From positions 1-46,693 of the IMG/VR virus record IMGVR_UViG_3300009285_002478: a stretch of 46,693 bases of DNA. One strand, given 5' to 3'. This DNA comes from a virus. The translations under genes and the position numbers were made by a program. The notes beneath the pieces were generated by a model that was not told the DNA's origin, ran no database searches, and was given only the letters and a program-made list of their open reading frames with translations. Shown piece after piece: positions 7,977 to 41,859 of this stretch; the first letter of the stretch is position 1, and the number at the start of each line of letters is the position of its first letter.

Positions 7977-9285
7977 CGTATTGGCGTTTGCAAAGGCGGC
8001 TATCCCTCAAGAGCGTTTCATTGAAGTTGGCAGAACTGGATTGAAACATTTTGGCGGGGTCCTTGACGATGAATTTTTACGAGAGTTGCGCGGCCCGCGC
8101 GGCGTCACCGTCTACCGTGAGATGTCGAAGAACGACGCCGTGGTGGGCGCCTCGCTGTTCGCCTATACGACCTTGGCGAAGGAGGTCAGCTTCCGCATCG
8201 ACAGCGCGAAGACCGGCGACCCACAGGCCGACGAGGTGGCGGAGTTCATCCGGGGTGCGCTGTTCGACGACATGAGCCTGTCGTGGCGGGACCTGTTGAG
8301 CGAGATCTTTTCATTCCTCACCTACGGATGGTCGTGGTTCGAGGTGGTCTACAAACGACGTGAAGGCGCGCAGCAGGACCCGAGCCGGAACAGCCGCTAC
8401 GACGACAAGAAGATTGGCTGGCGGAAGTGGGCCATCCGCGCGCAGGACACATTGTGGTCGTGGAAGTTGGACGAGTCCGGTGGCATTCAGGGCATGATGC
8501 AACGCGCGGCGCCACTCTACGAGACCGTGGAGATCCCGGTCGAGAAGTCGCTGCTGTTCCGCACCGCCTCGGAGCGTGGGTCGCCGGAGGGCGTGAGCAT
8601 CCTCCGCACTGCTTATCAGTCGTTCTACTACAAGCGGCGCATTCAGATCATCAGGGGCATCGGCATTGAGCGGGACCTCGCCGGGCTGCCGGTCATCACG
8701 CCCCCGGCGGGTGTCGACATCTGGAACACGAACGACGCGCAGGCGGCCGCCAGCAAGACGAACGCCGAGCAGATCGTGCGTAACATCCGGCGCGATGAGC
8801 ACGAGGGCATCGTGAAGCCGTTTGGGTGGACCATCGAGTTGCTCACGTCGGGTGGCGCGCGGCAGTTCAACATCACCGAGGTCATTGCGCAGCTGAACGC
8901 CGAGATCGCGATGTCGATGATGACGGACTTCCTCTTGGTGGGGCACGAGAAGGTGGGCGCGCGGTCGATGCGTGAGGATGCGCGGGACACGTTCAGCCAC
9001 TCAGCGTCGTCGTTCCTTGACAACATCTGCGACGTGGTGAACCGGTTCGCCATCCCAAAGCTTGTGGCGCTGAACGGGTGGCCTGGGGAGCTGAGTCCGA
9101 AGCTCGCGCACGGTCCGGTAGCGGAGATCGGATTGTCTGAGCTGACGAACTTCATCAAGGAGACGACGACGGCGGGACTGCTGTTCCCCGACGAAGGGCT
9201 GGAGTCGTATCTGCGGCAGCGGGCGCAGCTGCCCCCGGCGCCGGAGCGCGTGGCATCGACACGGGCGCCGTTGGAGCAAGAATGA
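7969..9285 (+). CDS. portal protein (DUF935 / Mu gp29-like)
   Basis: 438 residues from the ATG at 7969 with GGAGG six bases upstream. The N-terminal block (GVTVYREMSKNDAVVGASLF), then FLTYGWSWFEVVYKRR and the later EHEGIVKPFGWTIELL follow the pattern of DUF935 portal proteins. The portal is the dodecameric ring at one capsid vertex through which DNA enters. Position after the terminase and before the SPP1-gp7-type head protein agrees. Confidence 0.85.
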   Translation: MSDVLAFAKAAIPQERFIEVGRTGLKHFGGVLDDEFLRELRGPRGVTVYREMSKNDAVVGASLFAYTTLAKEVSFRIDSAKTGDPQADEVAEFIRGALFDDMSLSWRDLLSEIFSFLTYGWSWFEVVYKRREGAQQDPSRNSRYDDKKIGWRKWAIRAQDTLWSWKLDESGGIQGMMQRAAPLYETVEIPVEKSLLFRTASERGSPEGVSILRTAYQSFYYKRRIQIIRGIGIERDLAGLPVITPPAGVDIWNTNDAQAAASKTNAEQIVRNIRRDEHEGIVKPFGWTIELLTSGGARQFNITEVIAQLNAEIAMSMMTDFLLVGHEKVGARSMREDARDTFSHSASSFLDNICDVVNRFAIPKLVALNGWPGELSPKLAHGPVAEIGLSELTNFIKETTTAGLLFPDEGLESYLRQRAQLPPAPERVASTRAPLEQE

Positions 9286-9312: not shown

Positions 9313-9720
9313 ATGGCGATTCAACTCTCAGTAGCCGCGCGGAATGCGCGCCTTGATGCGATTGAAACAGCGGCTGGGGCCACGGCGATTCTGCGGATTC
9401 GCACCGGGGCACAGCCCGCAACCTGCGCGACGGCTGATTCCGGCACGATCCTCTCGGCCATGACCTTGCCGGCGGATTACATGGCGGCGGCGTCGGGCGG
9501 TGCTAAAGCCAAAAGTGGGACGTGGGAAGACGCGGCAGCGGATGCGGCGGGGACGGCGGCACACTTCCGCATCTACGACTCGGCCGGGACGACCTGCCAT
9601 CTACAGGGCAGCGTGAGTGCCACGGGCGGCGGGGGCGATCTGGAGTTGAATAACGTCGTGCTGGCCGTCGGGCAGACCGTGACAATCACCAGCTTCACAT
9701 TAACGGACGGCAACGCCTAA
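9313..9720 (+). CDS. putative virion structural protein, 135 aa
   Basis: ATG with CAGGAG upstream. The sequence is rich in Ala, Gly and Thr with predicted beta strands (TAILRIRTGAQPATCA, AAHFRIYDSAG, LELNNVVLAVGQTVTITSF). Proteins of this style recur in phage structural modules near fibre genes. Exact role unknown. Confidence 0.55.
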   Translation: MAIQLSVAARNARLDAIETAAGATAILRIRTGAQPATCATADSGTILSAMTLPADYMAAASGGAKAKSGTWEDAAADAAGTAAHFRIYDSAGTTCHLQGSVSATGGGGDLELNNVVLAVGQTVTITSFTLTDGNA

Positions 9721-9724
9721 GTAG

Positions 9725-12034
9725 ATGGGATCAGCCGTCCTCACCACCTCAGACGCGGCGTGGGCGTGGCCCGCGAACGTCACTGAGCTGACCGCCGAAG
9801 CGCTGGGCGGCGGAGGTGCGGGCGGCAACGCGACGAATAACCCGTCGAACTGCGGCGGCGGCAAGGGCGGCAGTTACGCCAAAGTCGTCATCACGAAAGG
9901 CGTGGAGTCTACTCTCAACATCACCGTGGGTGGCCCCGCCCTCGCCTCGACGATTGTGCAGAATGGGACCACCGTATTGTCTGCACCTGGCGGGGCCACG
10001 GTCGCCGCGAACAGTGCGACAGGCGCCACCGCGCTCGTTGGCTCGCATATCGGCACCGAGCAGCGTGTCGGTGGCAACGGCGGGGATGCCACCGGCACTA
10101 ATACGGTCTCTGGGGGTGGTGGCGGCGCCGCAGGACCGGGAGCGGATGGGGGTGCCGCGGCTGCGGGCACGGCAGGCACGCCGAACACGAGCAACTGGAA
10201 CGATGGTAACCCGTACGGCGGCACGAGCGGCGCCGGCGTCGCCGTGCGCAATGTCGGCGTAGCAGGCACTGTACGCGGCGGCGCGGGGTCAGGCGGCAAC
10301 TCGAACCAAGCCGCCGATAAGATTGGCGGTGCGGGCGCGGCTGGCGTCGTGGTCCTCACATGGACGGACGCGGTCACCGGCACCTTCGCGAAGACCCTCG
10401 CAGCCTGTATCCTGGCGGCGGTCTCCACCGTCAGTATCGCGGGCGCCGCGACCCCGACCCTCGGGAGTCTGACCTGCGCGGGATCGGGCACGGTTAGTAC
10501 CCCTGGCGCGATTACCTTCGTCCAACAGGCGGTCGGTGTCATTGATTCCGGCACCAGCCTCTCGGCCACGTTCGGGAGTGGTCCCACTACAGGCAATCTG
10601 TTGGTGGCATGCGTCATCTCGCGGGCGACCATCCTGACGAATCCGAGCGGCTGGACGACGGCCGTCGAGATTTTCAACGCGACTGAATCTGACTGGGTGC
10701 GGATCGCGTATAAGGTCGCCGGGGTCAGCGAGCCCTCGACCGTCACGTTTACGCAATCGGCTGATTCCGCTGTGCTGTCTATTGCGGAATGGTCGGGGCT
10801 GACAAACGCGATCCATGACGCGACGGCCTCCACTGGGCGCACGATCGACGCGACATCCCTCTCCTCCGGCACGACCGGCACCACGACGGCGGCGGATGAA
10901 CTGGCTGTGGCGATGGTGGGGATCCGATCAGCCATCAGCGTCGGCAGCTTCACGAATGGTTTTACGACGCGCGAAGAGGAAGCGCACGTCGGCAGCGTGT
11001 CCACGTCGATTCTTGTCGGCGACAAGGTGTTGTCGGCCACGGGCACACAGGAGACCACGGGATCGTGGACAACGGCGGGCGTGTCGATGGCCGCCATCGC
11101 GACCTTCCGCGCTGACACCGCCATCACCGGGGCGCTCGCGAAGACCCTCGGCGCGTGTCTGCTCGCGGCTGATGCCACCGTCAGTATTTCCGGATCCGCC
11201 ACCCTAACCCTCGGGAGCCTCACGACGTCAGGGAGTGGGGTGTTACCCGTCGTTGGCACCAGTGCCCCGACCCTCGGCGCGCTGACGAGTGCGGCCTCGG
11301 GCACGGTGGCCGATCCTGTCATCACTGGGGATCTCACCGTCACGCTGGAGGCGCTGTCTGGGGTGGCCGTAGGAAGTGTCCACGTCACGGGCAGCAGCGC
11401 GCAGACCCTCGCTCCGGTCGCCGCGAGCGCGTCAGGGGATGTTCCGCTTCAGGGCGCCGCCGCGATCACGCTCGATGGGGTGACGCTCGCGGCGACCGGG
11501 GAGGCAACATCGGCGTGTACTGGATCTCTAACACAGACGCTCGGCGGGCTCACAGGTGCAGGATCGGGCACCGTGGCCGTGGCTGGCTCTGGCACTGTGA
11601 CGTTGGGCGCGGTGACGACGTCCGGGGCTGGAGGGGTCCACGTCGCCGGGACCGCCAGCGTGTCCCTCGATGCCCTGACATCATCCGCCACAGGTGCCGT
11701 GGCCGTGGCGGGGGCCGCCACGCCGACGCTGGCTACGGTCACTGTGGCTGCCGCCGGGACGGCCGAGGATGTCACACCAATCACGGGCACGCTCGCGCAG
11801 ACCCTGACGGCACTCACCGGGAGCGGTGAAGGGGTTGTGCCGCTTACCGGTAGTCTGGCCATAACGCTCGCGCAGCTCACGAGCGCAGGCACAGGCACCA
11901 TAGGTGTATTTATTGCGACGCTTACTATAGAGGCAACGATTACCCGTGCTCTTAACATCACGTGCACGGCTACCCGAGCGTGGCCCGTCGGCGTAGAGAT
12001 CCAGCGGATCTTCGACGTGGAAGTGAGCGTATAA
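9725..12034 (+). CDS. adhesin-like protein with glycine-rich head and about 25-aa repeats
   Basis: 769 residues. The first 210 form a glycine-rich region (EALGGGGAGGNATNN, SGGGGGAAGPGADGGAAA), as in tail-fibre tips. A repeat of roughly 25 residues (pattern TLxxLTxxGxGTVxxxG) begins near 220, is interrupted by a beta-sandwich-like domain (about 260-465, with SWTTAG, SIAEWSGLTNA), then continues to about 730. The interrupting domain is flanked by 15 identical bases (TCGCGAAGACCCTCG at 10386-10400 and 11136-11150), in frame. Probably a surface-exposed fibre or capsid adhesin. It lies among head genes, not with the tail fibres. Confidence 0.65.
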   Translation: MGSAVLTTSDAAWAWPANVTELTAEALGGGGAGGNATNNPSNCGGGKGGSYAKVVITKGVESTLNITVGGPALASTIVQNGTTVLSAPGGATVAANSATGATALVGSHIGTEQRVGGNGGDATGTNTVSGGGGGAAGPGADGGAAAAGTAGTPNTSNWNDGNPYGGTSGAGVAVRNVGVAGTVRGGAGSGGNSNQAADKIGGAGAAGVVVLTWTDAVTGTFAKTLAACILAAVSTVSIAGAATPTLGSLTCAGSGTVSTPGAITFVQQAVGVIDSGTSLSATFGSGPTTGNLLVACVISRATILTNPSGWTTAVEIFNATESDWVRIAYKVAGVSEPSTVTFTQSADSAVLSIAEWSGLTNAIHDATASTGRTIDATSLSSGTTGTTTAADELAVAMVGIRSAISVGSFTNGFTTREEEAHVGSVSTSILVGDKVLSATGTQETTGSWTTAGVSMAAIATFRADTAITGALAKTLGACLLAADATVSISGSATLTLGSLTTSGSGVLPVVGTSAPTLGALTSAASGTVADPVITGDLTVTLEALSGVAVGSVHVTGSSAQTLAPVAASASGDVPLQGAAAITLDGVTLAATGEATSACTGSLTQTLGGLTGAGSGTVAVAGSGTVTLGAVTTSGAGGVHVAGTASVSLDALTSSATGAVAVAGAATPTLATVTVAAAGTAEDVTPITGTLAQTLTALTGSGEGVVPLTGSLAITLAQLTSAGTGTIGVFIATLTIEATITRALNITCTATRAWPVGVEIQRIFDVEVSV

Positions 12035-37946: not shown

Positions 37947-38401
37947 TGGCTGCCTCCTTTGTGCTTATTAAGCGCCGCGCCAATCGCGGCGGTAAGGTCC
38001 GCGCCATCTGACGCGTTGTCGCCCCAGACGACCTGCCGTTTCGGTGTCGGCGGTTCGTGCGTGACGTTCTGTGACCACGGCTCTCTTGACTGCTCAAACG
38101 ACGCGGTCGGGCGCGCCGCGATAATCCGCGTCGACGGAGCTGGCAGCGGCGGGCGAGTCGACCGCGCCTGTCCGGTCTGCGCAGCGCGAACGTCGTGCAG
38201 CGTCTCGATGGCCGCCTTCTTCGTCTGCCGCTCGCCGAACGCGGTGCCGTCGGCTGAACGCCACTTCCAGGTCGAGCCTCCGCACCAGAGATACCCGACG
38301 ACCGCGCCGCTTGACTTGAGCACCCACCCTGCGACGATGCCTTCGTCGGTATCAATCGTATGGTCGGTGAGGCCGAGCGCCTTATCGTGTGCGACGCCCA
38401 T
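37943..38401 (-). CDS. hypothetical protein, 152 aa
   Basis: ATG overlaps the TAA of the micro-gene upstream. N-terminal half beta-like (IVAGWVLKSSGAVVGYLWCG, STWKWRSADGTAFGERQTKK), C-terminal half a polar, Pro-rich linker and a short helix (DLTAAIGAALNKH). No family recognised. Confidence 0.6.
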   Translation of the reverse strand: MGVAHDKALGLTDHTIDTDEGIVAGWVLKSSGAVVGYLWCGGSTWKWRSADGTAFGERQTKKAAIETLHDVRAAQTGQARSTRPPLPAPSTRIIAARPTASFEQSREPWSQNVTHEPPTPKRQVVWGDNASDGADLTAAIGAALNKHKGGSQ

Positions 38402-38505: not shown

Positions 38506-38506
38506 T

Positions 38507-38566
38507 GGAACCTCGTTCAGGCCCGTCCATTCGGGCGACGCGGTCGCTGACCGCGTTTCTAGTTCC
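38507..38566 (-). promoter_or_regulatory. structured leader element, copy A
   Basis: Read leftward: CTAGAAA, hairpin CGCGGTC-AGC-GACCGCG, then a second hairpin GCCCG-AATGGA-CGGGC, then CCTGAACGAGGTT and the start codon at 38505. Copies B and C keep the second hairpin and the GAGGTT but have a different sequence in the first stem. Confidence 0.8.
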
Positions 38567-38631
38567 CCGTGCCGGGTGCTCCGGCTCGCCTGTGGCGGAC
38601 AGTCGTGCCGCCGCTCCGTTCTTCGCTGCGC

Positions 38632-39153
38632 TCAGAACGTGATCTTGATGATCTCGATGAGCGCCATCTTCATCGCGACATTCGCCTCGTTCTTGAGTGC
38701 GACGTTCGATGTCGCCGACTGCGCGAGTGCGACCGCTTTGAGCTTCGTGTATTTCGCGAAGCTGGCTTCTGTCGCAGCTGTGATGCCCTTCTCCTGGGCG
38801 GTCATGACCAGCGCATCTTCGAGTTTCGCGAGCGCCTGCACCTGAAGTGCAGCGGCTGACGGCAGCGGCGCGATAAACGCGGGGCCGCCACGCATCTTCG
38901 ACTTCCGGGGCGCACGCGGTGCGCCTGTCGCGGTGACCGGAGCAGTGCCGTTCTTCTGCGCCTGCCGCCGGAGCAGAATCCGCTCGCGCTTGGCGTCGAG
39001 GTAACCCTGCGCGTCCGCGAACATATGCTGCTTGAGAGTGGGGCCGTTATAGCCGGTCGGACTGTTCGCGACGTTTCCGAACCGATCAACGACTGTAGGG
39101 ACAATCGGCGCTCGCGGTGCGTGGTATGCGCGATACCGATTACGATAGGCCAT
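38632..39153 (-). CDS. hypothetical protein, 173 aa
   Basis: ATG at 39153 just after leader copy B (GAGGTTGCCA). N-terminus basic and aromatic (MAYRNRYRAYHAPRAP), a Pro-rich basic middle (APRAPRKSKMRGG), then a long helix (LQVQALAKLEDALVMTAQEK) to the C-terminus. No family recognised; a nucleic acid-binding structural role is possible. Confidence 0.65.
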   Translation of the reverse strand: MAYRNRYRAYHAPRAPIVPTVVDRFGNVANSPTGYNGPTLKQHMFADAQGYLDAKRERILLRRQAQKNGTAPVTATGAPRAPRKSKMRGGPAFIAPLPSAAALQVQALAKLEDALVMTAQEKGITAATEASFAKYTKLKAVALAQSATSNVALKNEANVAMKMALIEIIKITF

Positions 39154-39220
39154 TGGCAACCTCGTCAGGCCCGTCTATTCGGGCGACCCGGACTGGACAC
39201 GCTGTCCGAGTTTCTAGCTG
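39154..39220 (-). promoter_or_regulatory. structured leader element, copy B
   Basis: Leftward: CTAGAAACTC, hairpin around GGACA-GCG-TGTCC, then GTCGCCCGAATAGACGGGCC, CTGACGAGGTT, start at 39153. The 15-bp palindrome CTAGCTG-C-CAGCTAG (39214-39228) joins it to the stop of the VWA gene. Confidence 0.8.
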
Positions 39221-39224
39221 CCAG

Positions 39225-39827
39225 CTAGAGCGAAGCGCCGACGCTACCATCGCCGAGCAGTCCGGCAATCGCGGACTGCAGCTGCTTCGGAGCGCCGAGG
39301 TCGGTGACGTTCGCGGTGCCGCCCGTCGCAGCGGCCAACCGCTTCGCGAAGTCCGCGCCGCTGTCGTTACCGTCGCCGATGTAGAAGACGTCGATGGGCT
39401 TGCCGAACCGCGCTGCAGCCTGGAAGGTCCGCGACTCGCTGTCCGGCTGACCGTCGGTGACGATGATCAGGTGCGTCGCACCCTGACCGTTGCCGAAGTC
39501 AATCGCCTCGTGCATGTTCGTGCTGCCCTGCGGCTCGGGCACGGTGTCGACAACCTCGACGCCGTTCTTGACGCCGAACGCGGCGACAGGCACTGGATGC
39601 GACTCTCGGAGGTCCTTGACCACCTTTCGGAGAACGTCGATCTTGCGCTCGCTCTTCGAGGTCGTGCTCGACATCGACCCGCTGCAGTCGACCAAGAGCA
39701 GCGACCGCTTGACCCGCCCTCTGACTAGGCTCTGTAGGCTCGACGCGCCTGCGCTCGCCTTGAGCTGATCCACCGCAGTCGCGGTCGTGGCAAGCGTCGT
39801 GTCGTTCGTATCGTTCGTATCGGTCAT
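39225..39827 (-). CDS. von Willebrand factor A domain protein
   Basis: 200 residues from ATG at 39827, after leader copy C. MIDAS metal-site motifs: LLLVDCSGSMSS (DxSxS), GSTNMHEA (the Thr) and IIVTDGQPDSES (the Asp). VWA domains hold protein complexes together; in bacteria they often partner MoxR ATPases, but none is visible here. No signal peptide, so it acts in the cytoplasm or in the virion. Confidence 0.88.
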   Translation of the reverse strand: MTDTNDTNDTTLATTATAVDQLKASAGASSLQSLVRGRVKRSLLLVDCSGSMSSTTSKSERKIDVLRKVVKDLRESHPVPVAAFGVKNGVEVVDTVPEPQGSTNMHEAIDFGNGQGATHLIIVTDGQPDSESRTFQAAARFGKPIDVFYIGDGNDSGADFAKRLAAATGGTANVTDLGAPKQLQSAIAGLLGDGSVGASL

Positions 39828-39829
39828 GT

Positions 39830-39900
39830 TAAGGAACCTCATCAGGCCCGTCTATTCGGGCGACGGTCGCATCGTGCGACCGTTATCTAGTCCCCGTTAG
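39830..39900 (-). promoter_or_regulatory. structured leader element, copy C
   Basis: Leftward: GGGGACTAGATA, hairpin ACGGTCGCA-CGA-TGCGACCGT, then GTCGCCCGAATAGACGGGCC, TGATGAGGTTCC, start at 39827. Hairpin 1 here has nine base pairs with a sequence unlike copies A and B. Confidence 0.8.
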
Positions 39901-40239
39901 GGCGACTCGCGTCACCCTTTGTTTGTTCACCGAACGTCCGCTGCGTATCACGCGCATTGAACTAGCTGTTCTTCACGCCACGTCTACCGGCGCTCCGTTT
40001 ACACTCCAGCCGAGGCTGCTTTCGGGAGAGAGTCTGTCTCGGCCTCTGATGGTCGAGGAACCTCGCTCCAGTGTTTCTTCGGTGGGCGGTTCTGGTCGGT
40101 GGCTTCGTGTCGCGTGCCTTCCCGTCCCGTCCCCCGTCGGCCTACCCAACGGCCTAACTTACGAATACAGTATAATTCCTGCATCTCGACGTGTCCAGAC
40201 CTATTTTAGCTTGAGTGTTTGCAGGGGTTTAACTGGGGT
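39901..40239. other. non-coding region with leftward promoter
   Basis: No convincing gene on either strand. A 61-codon leftward frame (39999-40184) exists but has no ribosome site and spans the promoter. The stretch would form a leader of roughly 330 bases for the VWA gene. Confidence 0.5.
40169..40197 (-). promoter_or_regulatory. sigma70-like promoter, leftward
   Basis: TGGACA (40197-40192), 17 bases, TATACT (40174-40169): five of six matches in both boxes with ideal spacing. It would drive the VWA gene and those downstream. Confidence 0.6.
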
Positions 40240-40404
40240 TTAGTGGTCTCGTCCGAACCACCGCCGGGGAGTCGTGCGCGCTGCATGTGCTGCGCGCATC
40301 TTCGCGCGGGTCTCCGGTGACGCCTTCTTGCCACGCGACGCGGCCGCATTTTTCCGTTTACTCTCGGCGGAGCGTGCGACCCGCGGCGCGTGACGTTTTT
40401 CCAT
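40240..40404 (-). CDS. NUMOD3-like small basic protein, 54 aa
   Basis: Starts at ATG 40404, which overlaps the stop of the gene upstream (TAATG). The middle, RGKKASPETRAKMRAAHAAR, is like the NUMOD3 DNA-binding module of homing endonucleases (GKKxSPETRxKM). No nuclease domain accompanies it. Could be a stand-alone DNA-binding protein or a leftover of a homing endonuclease. Confidence 0.6.
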   Translation of the reverse strand: MEKRHAPRVARSAESKRKNAAASRGKKASPETRAKMRAAHAARTTPRRWFGRDH

Positions 40405-41177
40405 TACATATCCGACGTAGAACCGCGCTCGATGTCGGCCGGGTTGAAGTCGTCAGGGTCGTCAGTGCCGATGCCGCTGCGGTCGATACGCGCCGCGTCA
40501 ATCCCCTTCACGGCCTCGAAGGCTTCCTCGCCGAGCTTGAAGTCTTCTTCAGATACCCACTGGGCCTGTTCGACCTGGAAAATCTGATGCGGTTTTGGCG
40601 TCAGCTTGACGGCGGTGAAGATGCGAAGTCTCACAGCGAAACAGTCACGGTTGCCCATCGTCGCGAAGCCCCAGAGGTTCTTCGCTGCGGTGAGCCCTGA
40701 CGACTTGAAGCTGAGCGCGATCATCTCGCGCTGCGGCAAGATCACCGCGATGAAGTCGCGGAACAACGTTGCCTTCGGCTTGTCGGCCTTCTTGTCGCCG
40801 CTATTGCCCCACTTGAGGCGGGCGTCCCCTATCGGCACGTCGGGGTCCAACACGCCGCCGCCGTCATCGACGCTACGAAACTCCATAGCGCGCAGCGGCA
40901 TCTTGCGGAGTAGCTGCACGAAGACTTCCCTGCCGTAGACCTGCTTGGTCACAGTGTTGAAGAGGTCGCCAGGTTTCAACCCTTCGATGCGCGCTGGATC
41001 GCCGTCAGTGACTTGCGGATGCAGCGCCTGCGCGAGCGCGAGACGAGGGATGTTGACGTCGCTCTGCGTTGTGTCCTCGAAGCCGCGCCTGCTCTTCGGA
41101 ATGTAGCTTGGCGCTGGAGTGAGCGCCTGGTGTGTCGTTGCGATATCGGTCTGGGCTGCCTGTGTCTTCGTTGTCAT
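40404..41177 (-). CDS. hypothetical protein, possible ssDNA-binding/recombination factor
   Basis: 257 residues from ATG at 41177 (AGGA upstream; further in-frame sequence up to 41234 is less likely). DVNIPRLALAQALHPQVTDG, then GDLFNTVTKQVYGREVFV, RDFIAVILPQREMIALSF, and FTAVKLTPKPHQIFQVEQ. I recall similar proteins in siphovirus DNA modules, of unproven function. Acidic C-terminus (DDPDDFNPADIE), as in single-strand binding proteins. Confidence 0.55.
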   Translation of the reverse strand: MTTKTQAAQTDIATTHQALTPAPSYIPKSRRGFEDTTQSDVNIPRLALAQALHPQVTDGDPARIEGLKPGDLFNTVTKQVYGREVFVQLLRKMPLRAMEFRSVDDGGGVLDPDVPIGDARLKWGNSGDKKADKPKATLFRDFIAVILPQREMIALSFKSSGLTAAKNLWGFATMGNRDCFAVRLRIFTAVKLTPKPHQIFQVEQAQWVSEEDFKLGEEAFEAVKGIDAARIDRSGIGTDDPDDFNPADIERGSTSDM

Positions 41178-41278
41178 GATTCTCGCTTCCTGTTTTACGC
41201 GTTTAATGGTTATGCCGTCTCTCCGAGCTGTCACGCCTAGATTATGCTCTACTGGTTCCCGGCGTTCTCATACCGCGA

Positions 41279-41365
41279 TTACCGCGTCAGCACTCCCGCC
41301 GGCACAGGGTCAGGACTTCCCCGCCGGATGCTGTCGTAGCTGTCCTGTAGCAGAATGTCGATCAC
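41279..41365 (-). CDS. micro-protein, 28 aa
   Basis: GTG at 41365 overlaps the TGA of the gene upstream and has GAGGAC before it. Sequence IDILLQDSYDSIRRG then a Pro/Gly end. No family recognised. Confidence 0.4.
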   Translation of the reverse strand: MIDILLQDSYDSIRRGSPDPVPAGVLTR

Positions 41366-41859
41366 TTCGTCCTCAGCACGAACTTGTCGCGCACGTAACA
41401 CTTGATGCCGTCGGGCTCTGGCTCGCCATTTAACAGGCGCTCTTTCGTGACACCGTTCGTCGTCATCCACGGGAGCGTCATCGCCGATGCGTAGCCGTGC
41501 GCGAGGCACCACTCACGATACTTGTCCCGGTCTTCGACAATCGAATAAGGCTCAGGCTGGAGGCTGACGCTCTCACCTGTATCGAGTTTAATCGTCGATG
41601 CGCCTTCGACTTCATACTGTCTCGCGAGCAGCGCCTCTGTCGCCGCGATGCGCAGGTTAATCTCCGACAGCACCGCATTCGCAGCGTCCTTCTCGGCGCG
41701 AAGCGCGACGTAACTCCGCGCGAGTGCAGCGGCGTGCGGCTCGAAGTCTGGATCGTCTTGCATAGCTTCTGCTACCGCGTCGATTTTCTTCTGATACTCC
41801 GGCTCCTCGCCCATGTAGCGCGGGAGCTTGGTGAGCACGCTTGCATACTTACTGGCCAT
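41362..41859 (-). CDS. hypothetical protein with coiled-coil, 165 aa
   Basis: ATG with AGGAG seven bases upstream. A helical middle (ALARSYVALRAEKDAANAVL, SEINLRIAATEALLARQYEV) and a conserved-looking C-terminus (AMTLPWMTTNGVTKERLLNG, EPEPDGIKCYVRDKF). Similar proteins are found in phage DNA modules without assigned function. Confidence 0.6.
   Translation of the reverse strand: MASKYASVLTKLPRYMGEEPEYQKKIDAVAEAMQDDPDFEPHAAALARSYVALRAEKDAANAVLSEINLRIAATEALLARQYEVEGASTIKLDTGESVSLQPEPYSIVEDRDKYREWCLAHGYASAMTLPWMTTNGVTKERLLNGEPEPDGIKCYVRDKFVLRTK

Follow-up and report, generated by a model that had tools for sequence, protein, structure and literature searches.

The presence of hammerhead ribozymes in phage genomes has been known since 2011, and their purpose there has been described as unclear. 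In the type II class (Rfam RF02276), stem II is open, stems I and III are closed, and the core is made of CUGANGA, GAA, the A15.1-U16.1 pair and C17; several copies may flank single genes in phage DNA, according to the 2011 survey by Perreault et al. (PMC3088659). Its authors already suggested that cleavage divides long phage transcripts into gene-length mRNAs, and reported that tandem phage and prophage hammerheads cleave in vitro, an Agrobacterium set also in E. coli. HHphage of haloviruses HF1 and HF2, as presented there, is a hammerhead variant that precedes a start codon by 13 nt; a 5′ end was mapped no more than 3 nt from its cleavage site. In artificial riboswitches designed for bacteria, a hammerhead or twister ribozyme masks the Shine-Dalgarno (SD) sequence and cleavage frees it; with twister in E. 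coli, expression was 5 to about 100 times higher when the ribozyme was active (PMC5052635, PMC10966536). Finally, the SAS and ESAS of cluster K mycobacteriophages are repeated at the ribosome-binding sites of many phage genes, sometimes with an upstream inverted repeat (PMC3203893).

We examined a 46,693-nt stretch of viral DNA (IMG/VR record IMGVR_UViG_3300009285_002478, positions 1 to 46,693, hereafter the window), whose minus strand carries three copies of a 62-68 nt element, each shortly before an ATG. Each copy is, we believe with fair assurance, a diverged type II hammerhead ribozyme occupying the junction between two genes, where it most likely self-cleaves polycistronic mRNA. The elements have the stem arrangement, core and serial placement of the type II class, and differ from its canonical members in several ways. 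Stem I has 5 bp and a conserved AAUNRA loop, there is a bulge beside positions 10.1/11.1, and 11.1 is often A; no pseudoknot enrichment is found, and the start codon follows A9 by 6-14 nt, which makes the core the SD. HHphage resembles them by its position before a start codon, but it is a single copy in an archaeal virus whose core insertion is near C3, not after A6 or A13, and the part of PMC3088659 devoted to it describes no SD role. Compared to the artificial riboswitches, the arrangement is natural and repeated, and the likeness in working holds only if gating of translation is shown. SAS and ESAS differ in being a sequence-conserved 13-bp repeat devoid of a hammerhead core.

All copies have the same order of parts, from 5′ to 3′: one strand of stem II, UAGAAA (copy 1 reads GAUAAC, with a U inserted after A13, U13a), a variable stem III hairpin, UC, the stem I hairpin GCCCG-AAURGA-CGGGC, the rest of the core (CUGAUGA, CUGACGA and CUGAACGA in copies 1, 2 and 3), the second strand of stem II and the start codon (Table 1). 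The 16-nt stem I hairpin occurs exactly three times in the window, with no further occurrence at up to 2 mismatches. Folded alone, each of the three copies gave the same three-way junction, closed by stem II, which includes part of the ribosome-binding site. The original prediction, of three copies ending at start codons and sharing CTAGA, GCCCG-AATRGA-CGGGC and GAGGTT, was accurate in both respects, and a model built from other phages alone recovers all three copies (see below). It also described a first hairpin with three unrelated but fully paired stems. This hairpin is stem III; in copy 2, the pairing proposed (GGACA/UGUCC) is a competing local hairpin, the true stem being the 8-bp ACUCGGAC/GUCCGGGU. 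With two hairpins listed, the third helix, stem II, had been overlooked.

Table 1. Location of the three elements, their parts and the neighbouring genes in the window (SD, Shine-Dalgarno sequence; R2, covariance model described in the text).
Feature	Position	Strand	Remarks
Copy 1, whole element	39832-39895	-	Type II hammerhead anatomy; before VWA-domain gene, 3′ end 4 nt from ATG 39827-39825; R2 57.7 bits, E 1e-18; fold z-score -3.1; best Rfam match Hammerhead_II, 21.8 bits, sub-threshold
Copy 1, stem II 5′ strand GGGAC	39890-39894	-	Partner GUUCC 39833-39837
Copy 1, core G12-A13-[U insert]-A14-A15.1 (GAUAA)	39883-39887	-	Read from sequence
Copy 1, stem III hairpin ACGGUCGCA..UGCGACCGU	39863-39883	-	A15.1 to U16.1
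Copy 1, predicted cleavage site	39861-39862	-	C17 (39862) / G1.1 (39861), from hammerhead anatomy
Copy 1, stem I hairpin GCCCG-AAUAGA-CGGGC	39846-39861	-	Predicted mRNA 5′ end once cleaved
Copy 1, core CUGAUGA and stem II 3′ strand	39833-39845	-	SD = GAGG 39837-39840
Copy 2, whole element	39155-39222	-	Canonical core CUGACGA, GAA, A15.1-U16.1, C17; 3′ end 1 nt from ATG 39153-39151; R2 56.9 bits, E 2e-18
Copy 2, stem II 5′ strand GGCAGC	39217-39222	-	Partner GUUGCC 39155-39160; VWA-gene stop UAG (39225-39227) 2 nt upstream
Copy 2, stem III hairpin ACUCGGAC..GUCCGGGU	39186-39211	-	
Copy 2, predicted cleavage site	39184-39185	-	C17 (39185) / G1.1 (39184), from anatomy
Copy 2, stem I hairpin	39169-39184	-	
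Copy 2, core CUGACGA and stem II 3′ strand	39155-39168	-	SD = GAGG 39160-39163
Copy 3, whole element	38506-38567	-	Core CUGA-A-CGA with extra A after A6; 3′ end 0 nt from ATG 38505-38503; R2 64.7 bits, E 2.4e-21; fold z-score -2.56
Copy 3, stem II 5′ strand GGAAC	38562-38566	-	Partner GUUCC 38507-38511
Copy 3, stem III hairpin ACGCGGUC..GACCGCGU	38538-38556	-	
Copy 3, predicted cleavage site	38536-38537	-	C17 (38537) / G1.1 (38536), from anatomy
Copy 3, stem I hairpin GCCCG-AAUGGA-CGGGC	38521-38536	-	
Copy 3, core (A6a insert) and stem II 3′ strand	38507-38520	-	SD = GAGG 38511-38514
VWA-domain protein gene, 200 aa	39225-39827	-	Led by copy 1; Pfam VWA_3, E 3.9e-7
Gene, 173 aa	38632-39153	-	Led by copy 2; without family match
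Short ORF, 34 aa	38401-38505	-	Led by copy 3; stop overlaps start of a 152-aa ORF at 38401
Promoter-like site TGGACA-17-TATACT (sigma-70-like)	40169-40197	-	~270 nt upstream of copy 1; 10/12 matches, 0.4 expected per shuffle; weak evidence

To find relatives, a pattern derived from the window was used, and it matched in two viral contigs; a looser hammerhead pattern matched 40 stretches, which split into a canonical type II set and a window-like set. A covariance model built on 23 window-like sequences (R1) gave 99 matches across the two sets and, run on whole contigs, 13 elements within 5.5 kb in G006, 9 in G003, 9 in G005, 7 in G002 and the 3 of the window. A second model (R2) was built without any sequence from the window or from contig L001, and copy 2 was in the training set of neither. 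R2 recovered the three copies of the window with scores of 57-65 bits (E 1e-18 to 2e-21), and its next match there scored 11 bits. The strict window-like set holds 50 elements in 11 contigs including the window, and one more in L097 brings the carriers to 12 uncultured phage contigs. These phages are distant from each other: identity between shared ORFs is mostly 30-55%, and in G008 hardly any ORF is shared. Covariance models, as proposed along with the original prediction, and pattern scans together find about 50 elements in 12 contigs and none in isolated phages, and the objection that related phages might hold no further copies falls, since they do hold them. Matches in contigs L044, L098, L100 and L101 were due to chance, as was the one match in bacterial genomes, inside a Bacteroidales contig. 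A DNA search of isolated phages with the region and two element sequences returned nothing convincing, the scattered 21-23 nt matches being attributed to chance.

That the structure is under selection, as had been argued from the three copies, is confirmed by the alignment of 23 sequences: 12 of the 17 pairs change on both sides, and the covariation score is 0.592, a value reached by none of 500 shuffles, compared to 0.165 after shuffling. Cells of the alignment are paired in 94.9% of cases versus 72.3% in shuffles, and this proportion drops to 44-47% when the partner is shifted by one column. The A15.1-U16.1 position is A-U in 23/23 sequences, amid adjacent stem III pairs that covary.

Because the first two patterns had required core bases, the search was repeated with all catalytic bases left free, requiring stem I, its loop and AGGUNCC alone. 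It yielded 23 unique elements, and CUGANG was present in every one of them, with N7 being U in 10, C in 9, G in 2 and A in 2. GAAA leading through A15.1 into stem III was likewise found in 23/23 (20 by strict pairing criteria, while the other 3 contain a small bulge), and UC stood before stem I throughout. In a scan where CUGANGA was left free, 17 of 18 elements have it, the exception being a chance match. The only free position of the hammerhead core, N7, is therefore the free position in these elements. A structure kept solely to hide or show a ribosome-binding site would not fix catalytic bases, which argues for a ribozyme rather than a mere leader. Since the fixed unpaired bases match the type II catalytic core, the original prediction of a new phage RNA leader needs amending: a leader at the translation start it is, and it may, as was suggested, control translation or RNA decay, but it belongs, as a divergent form, to a structural class already known and is not wholly new.

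Going through the features of type II in order (stem II strand – GAA – stem III hairpin – UC↓ – stem I hairpin – CUGANGA – stem II strand), we found a three-way junction with stems I and III closed by loops and stem II open. The segment C3-U4-G5-A6-N7-G8-A9, where N7 alone is free, is exact in copies 1 and 2, and in copy 3 an A is inserted behind A6 (A6a); G12-A13-A14 with A15.1-U16.1 is exact in copies 2 and 3, so that the core of copy 2 is exact and two of the three copies have an insertion. Position 17 is H, not G, with UC before stem I in 39/39 as well as 23/23 elements. The 10.1/11.1 position is C-G in 10 of 23 sequences and otherwise non-standard, including A opposite G in the window: 11.1, usually C, is A in all three copies and C in 10 of 23 sequences of the wider set. 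The sections of PMC3088659 on natural variants list both insertions, A6a with low activity and U13a argued to be well tolerated, and report a natural U-U mismatch at 10.1/11.1 as active. At curated thresholds, an Rfam search of the window gave no match at the elements; with thresholds lifted, Hammerhead_II was listed for copy 1 and for copy 2 (17.1 bits), against a threshold of 37, and copy 3 was unlisted. The window-like set scores 17-33 bits with RF02276, at most 33, whereas canonical type II elements of the same scan (GCCGAAAC..CUGAUGAGGC) score 40-61; this set therefore escapes the standard Rfam model. A pseudoknot of at least 4 pairs between loop I and the 3′ tail was not enriched (18/50 versus 25 expected), by a simple test that is also weak for canonical elements (11 versus 7.8). 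We regard the hammerhead ancestry of the elements as almost certain, and it is very likely that most members of the family cleave. The anatomy of the window copies agrees well with membership; as to their activity, we predict that copy 2 is active, that copy 1, with its U13a insert, probably is, and that copy 3, with A6a, is slow.

The link to translation start made in the original prediction extends to the whole family. In 47 of 50 window-like elements, A9 is followed by a start codon at a distance of 6-14 nt, versus 8% at random positions (for one of the 47, L002 8809, orthologs suggest that the true start may be further downstream, at an ATG with its own SD). GAGG, made of G8, A9, G10.1 and the next base, is inside the core and stem II, and is the sole SD before the start codon; canonical type II elements of the same scan are mostly 17-52 nt before the start, with a separate GGAGG SD. 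The stop of the upstream ORF falls within -6 to +8 of the element in 34/50, versus 10% at random, and in 7 window-like elements this stop is a UAG containing G12. As the upstream stop is also within -6 to +8 in 29 of 39 canonical elements, stop-adjacent placement is common to phage type II hammerheads, and the SD overlap is the special feature of the window-like set. This placement is informative on the job of the element: its catalytic core is the ribosome-binding site, and it spans the stop-to-start gap, gene after gene.

The genes led by the elements are unrelated (VWA, UvrD-type helicases, DNA ligase, WGR, DUF7168, mostly unknown). Among 46 ortholog matches in other contigs, the element was present in 19. 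The helicase gene has it in G005 and G001 but lacks it in G006 (57% identical), and the ligase gene has it in G005 only; orthologs without it carry an ordinary GGAGG-type SD. The element is therefore not essential to any one gene, and a gene-specific role is ruled out. Elements gained and lost independently of the gene suit a general RNA-processing part.

In the mechanism that we propose, the nascent polycistronic phage RNA would cut itself between C17 and G1.1. This would give the downstream mRNA a 5′-OH and a 31-34 nt leader starting with the stem I hairpin, and would release its SD from cis pairing with the 5′ strand of stem II; the upstream mRNA would end with the stem III hairpin and a 2′,3′-cyclic phosphate. 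With elements in series, a single transcript would yield mRNAs of one gene each, their ends structured, and such processing at gene junctions is likely to be the main role. A less certain step is that the SD masked in stem II may keep the uncut RNA untranslated, cleavage turning translation on. The computed cost of opening the SD went from 4.4 to 3.6 kcal/mol on cleavage, opening being easier in 29 of 47 elements. Because this average gain is small, we propose only tentatively a natural ribozyme-gated translation, where self-cleavage exposes the SD, cutting the transcript into single-gene mRNAs and licensing each of them; in such a system the catalytic core is itself the ribosome-binding site and, in some copies, the stop of the preceding gene (the UAG containing G12). 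Our search of the open-access literature found no description of a natural hammerhead with an SD inside its core, and one may exist in subscription papers or preprints. The arrangement offers a sharp and cheap test of natural ribozymes controlling bacterial translation and mRNA processing. Circular mRNA made by a phage RtcB ligase, which could rejoin hammerhead ends, was unsupported: RtcB was absent from the 12 contigs, and control genomes were detected.

Cleavage could also be the sole function, the ribozymes processing polycistronic RNA and protecting its ends while the SD overlap is economical packing at tight junctions and translation is ungated. Canonical elements, which start at the upstream stop as well yet keep a separate downstream SD, agree with this, as do the SD-opening energies, little altered by cleavage, and the ordinary SD of orthologs devoid of the element. 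The very tight spacing between core and start is harder to explain in this way, as is a stem II that covaries while part of the SD stays paired, and we consider this explanation plausible without calling it probable. If instead the elements were non-cleaving translational operators of hammerhead descent, their leader structure masking or presenting the SD, the core insertions of copies 1 and 3, the A at 11.1 and the low Rfam scores would be accounted for. Such operators are unlikely, however, as the catalytic residues were retained in all 23 elements of a search that did not require them, N7 is as free to vary as it is in active hammerheads, and A15.1-U16.1 does not change amid covarying pairs.

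The conserved AAUNRA loop and the repetition at starts might mark a site where a phage or host protein binds, placed as are the Start Associated Sequences of cluster K mycobacteriophages. But those are a 13-bp GGGATAGGAGCCC repeat without any of this core (PMC3203893), the GGGATAGGAGCCC repeat before the start codon is absent from the elements, and a hammerhead tertiary contact would need the conserved loop too, which makes such a site very improbable. As for intrinsic terminators or chance hairpins, which the G+C-rich hairpins could evoke, they are refuted to near certainty by the covariation and by the presence in twelve contigs, and no terminator-like site was found at the three copies.

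Canonical type II hammerheads also occur in series before successive genes, each with its own downstream SD, in L006 (10802-13091), L027 (10703-12213) and L031 (3199-4243). L040 has seven elements (8249-8298, 8489-8544, 8726-8784, 9450-9510, 9677-9735, 10033-10090 and 10803-10870), each with an "anti-core" in the 30 nt that follow. Its sequence is CAUCAG or GUCAG, and it could base-pair with CUGAUG or CUGAC of the catalytic core. The anti-core varies in step with N7 (U with A, C with G), and may be an off-switch or serve a refolding step after cleavage. A further motif, CACUGACGAG, follows most of these elements and their anti-cores.

In the window, some 350 nt (39896-40250) separate the last upstream ORF from copy 1. 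They contain the sigma-70-like site and gave no Rfam match; a transcript starting at this site, if it is a promoter, would carry all three elements. The VWA-domain protein led by copy 1 has a weak match to PHROG 850, annotated as RNA-binding protein (E 9e-4). The window terminase is at most 45% identical to any phage record, which means that the window comes from a deeply novel phage, and the proteins encoded at 40404-41234 and 41362-41859 resemble gp34 and gp33 of cyanophage Pam3.
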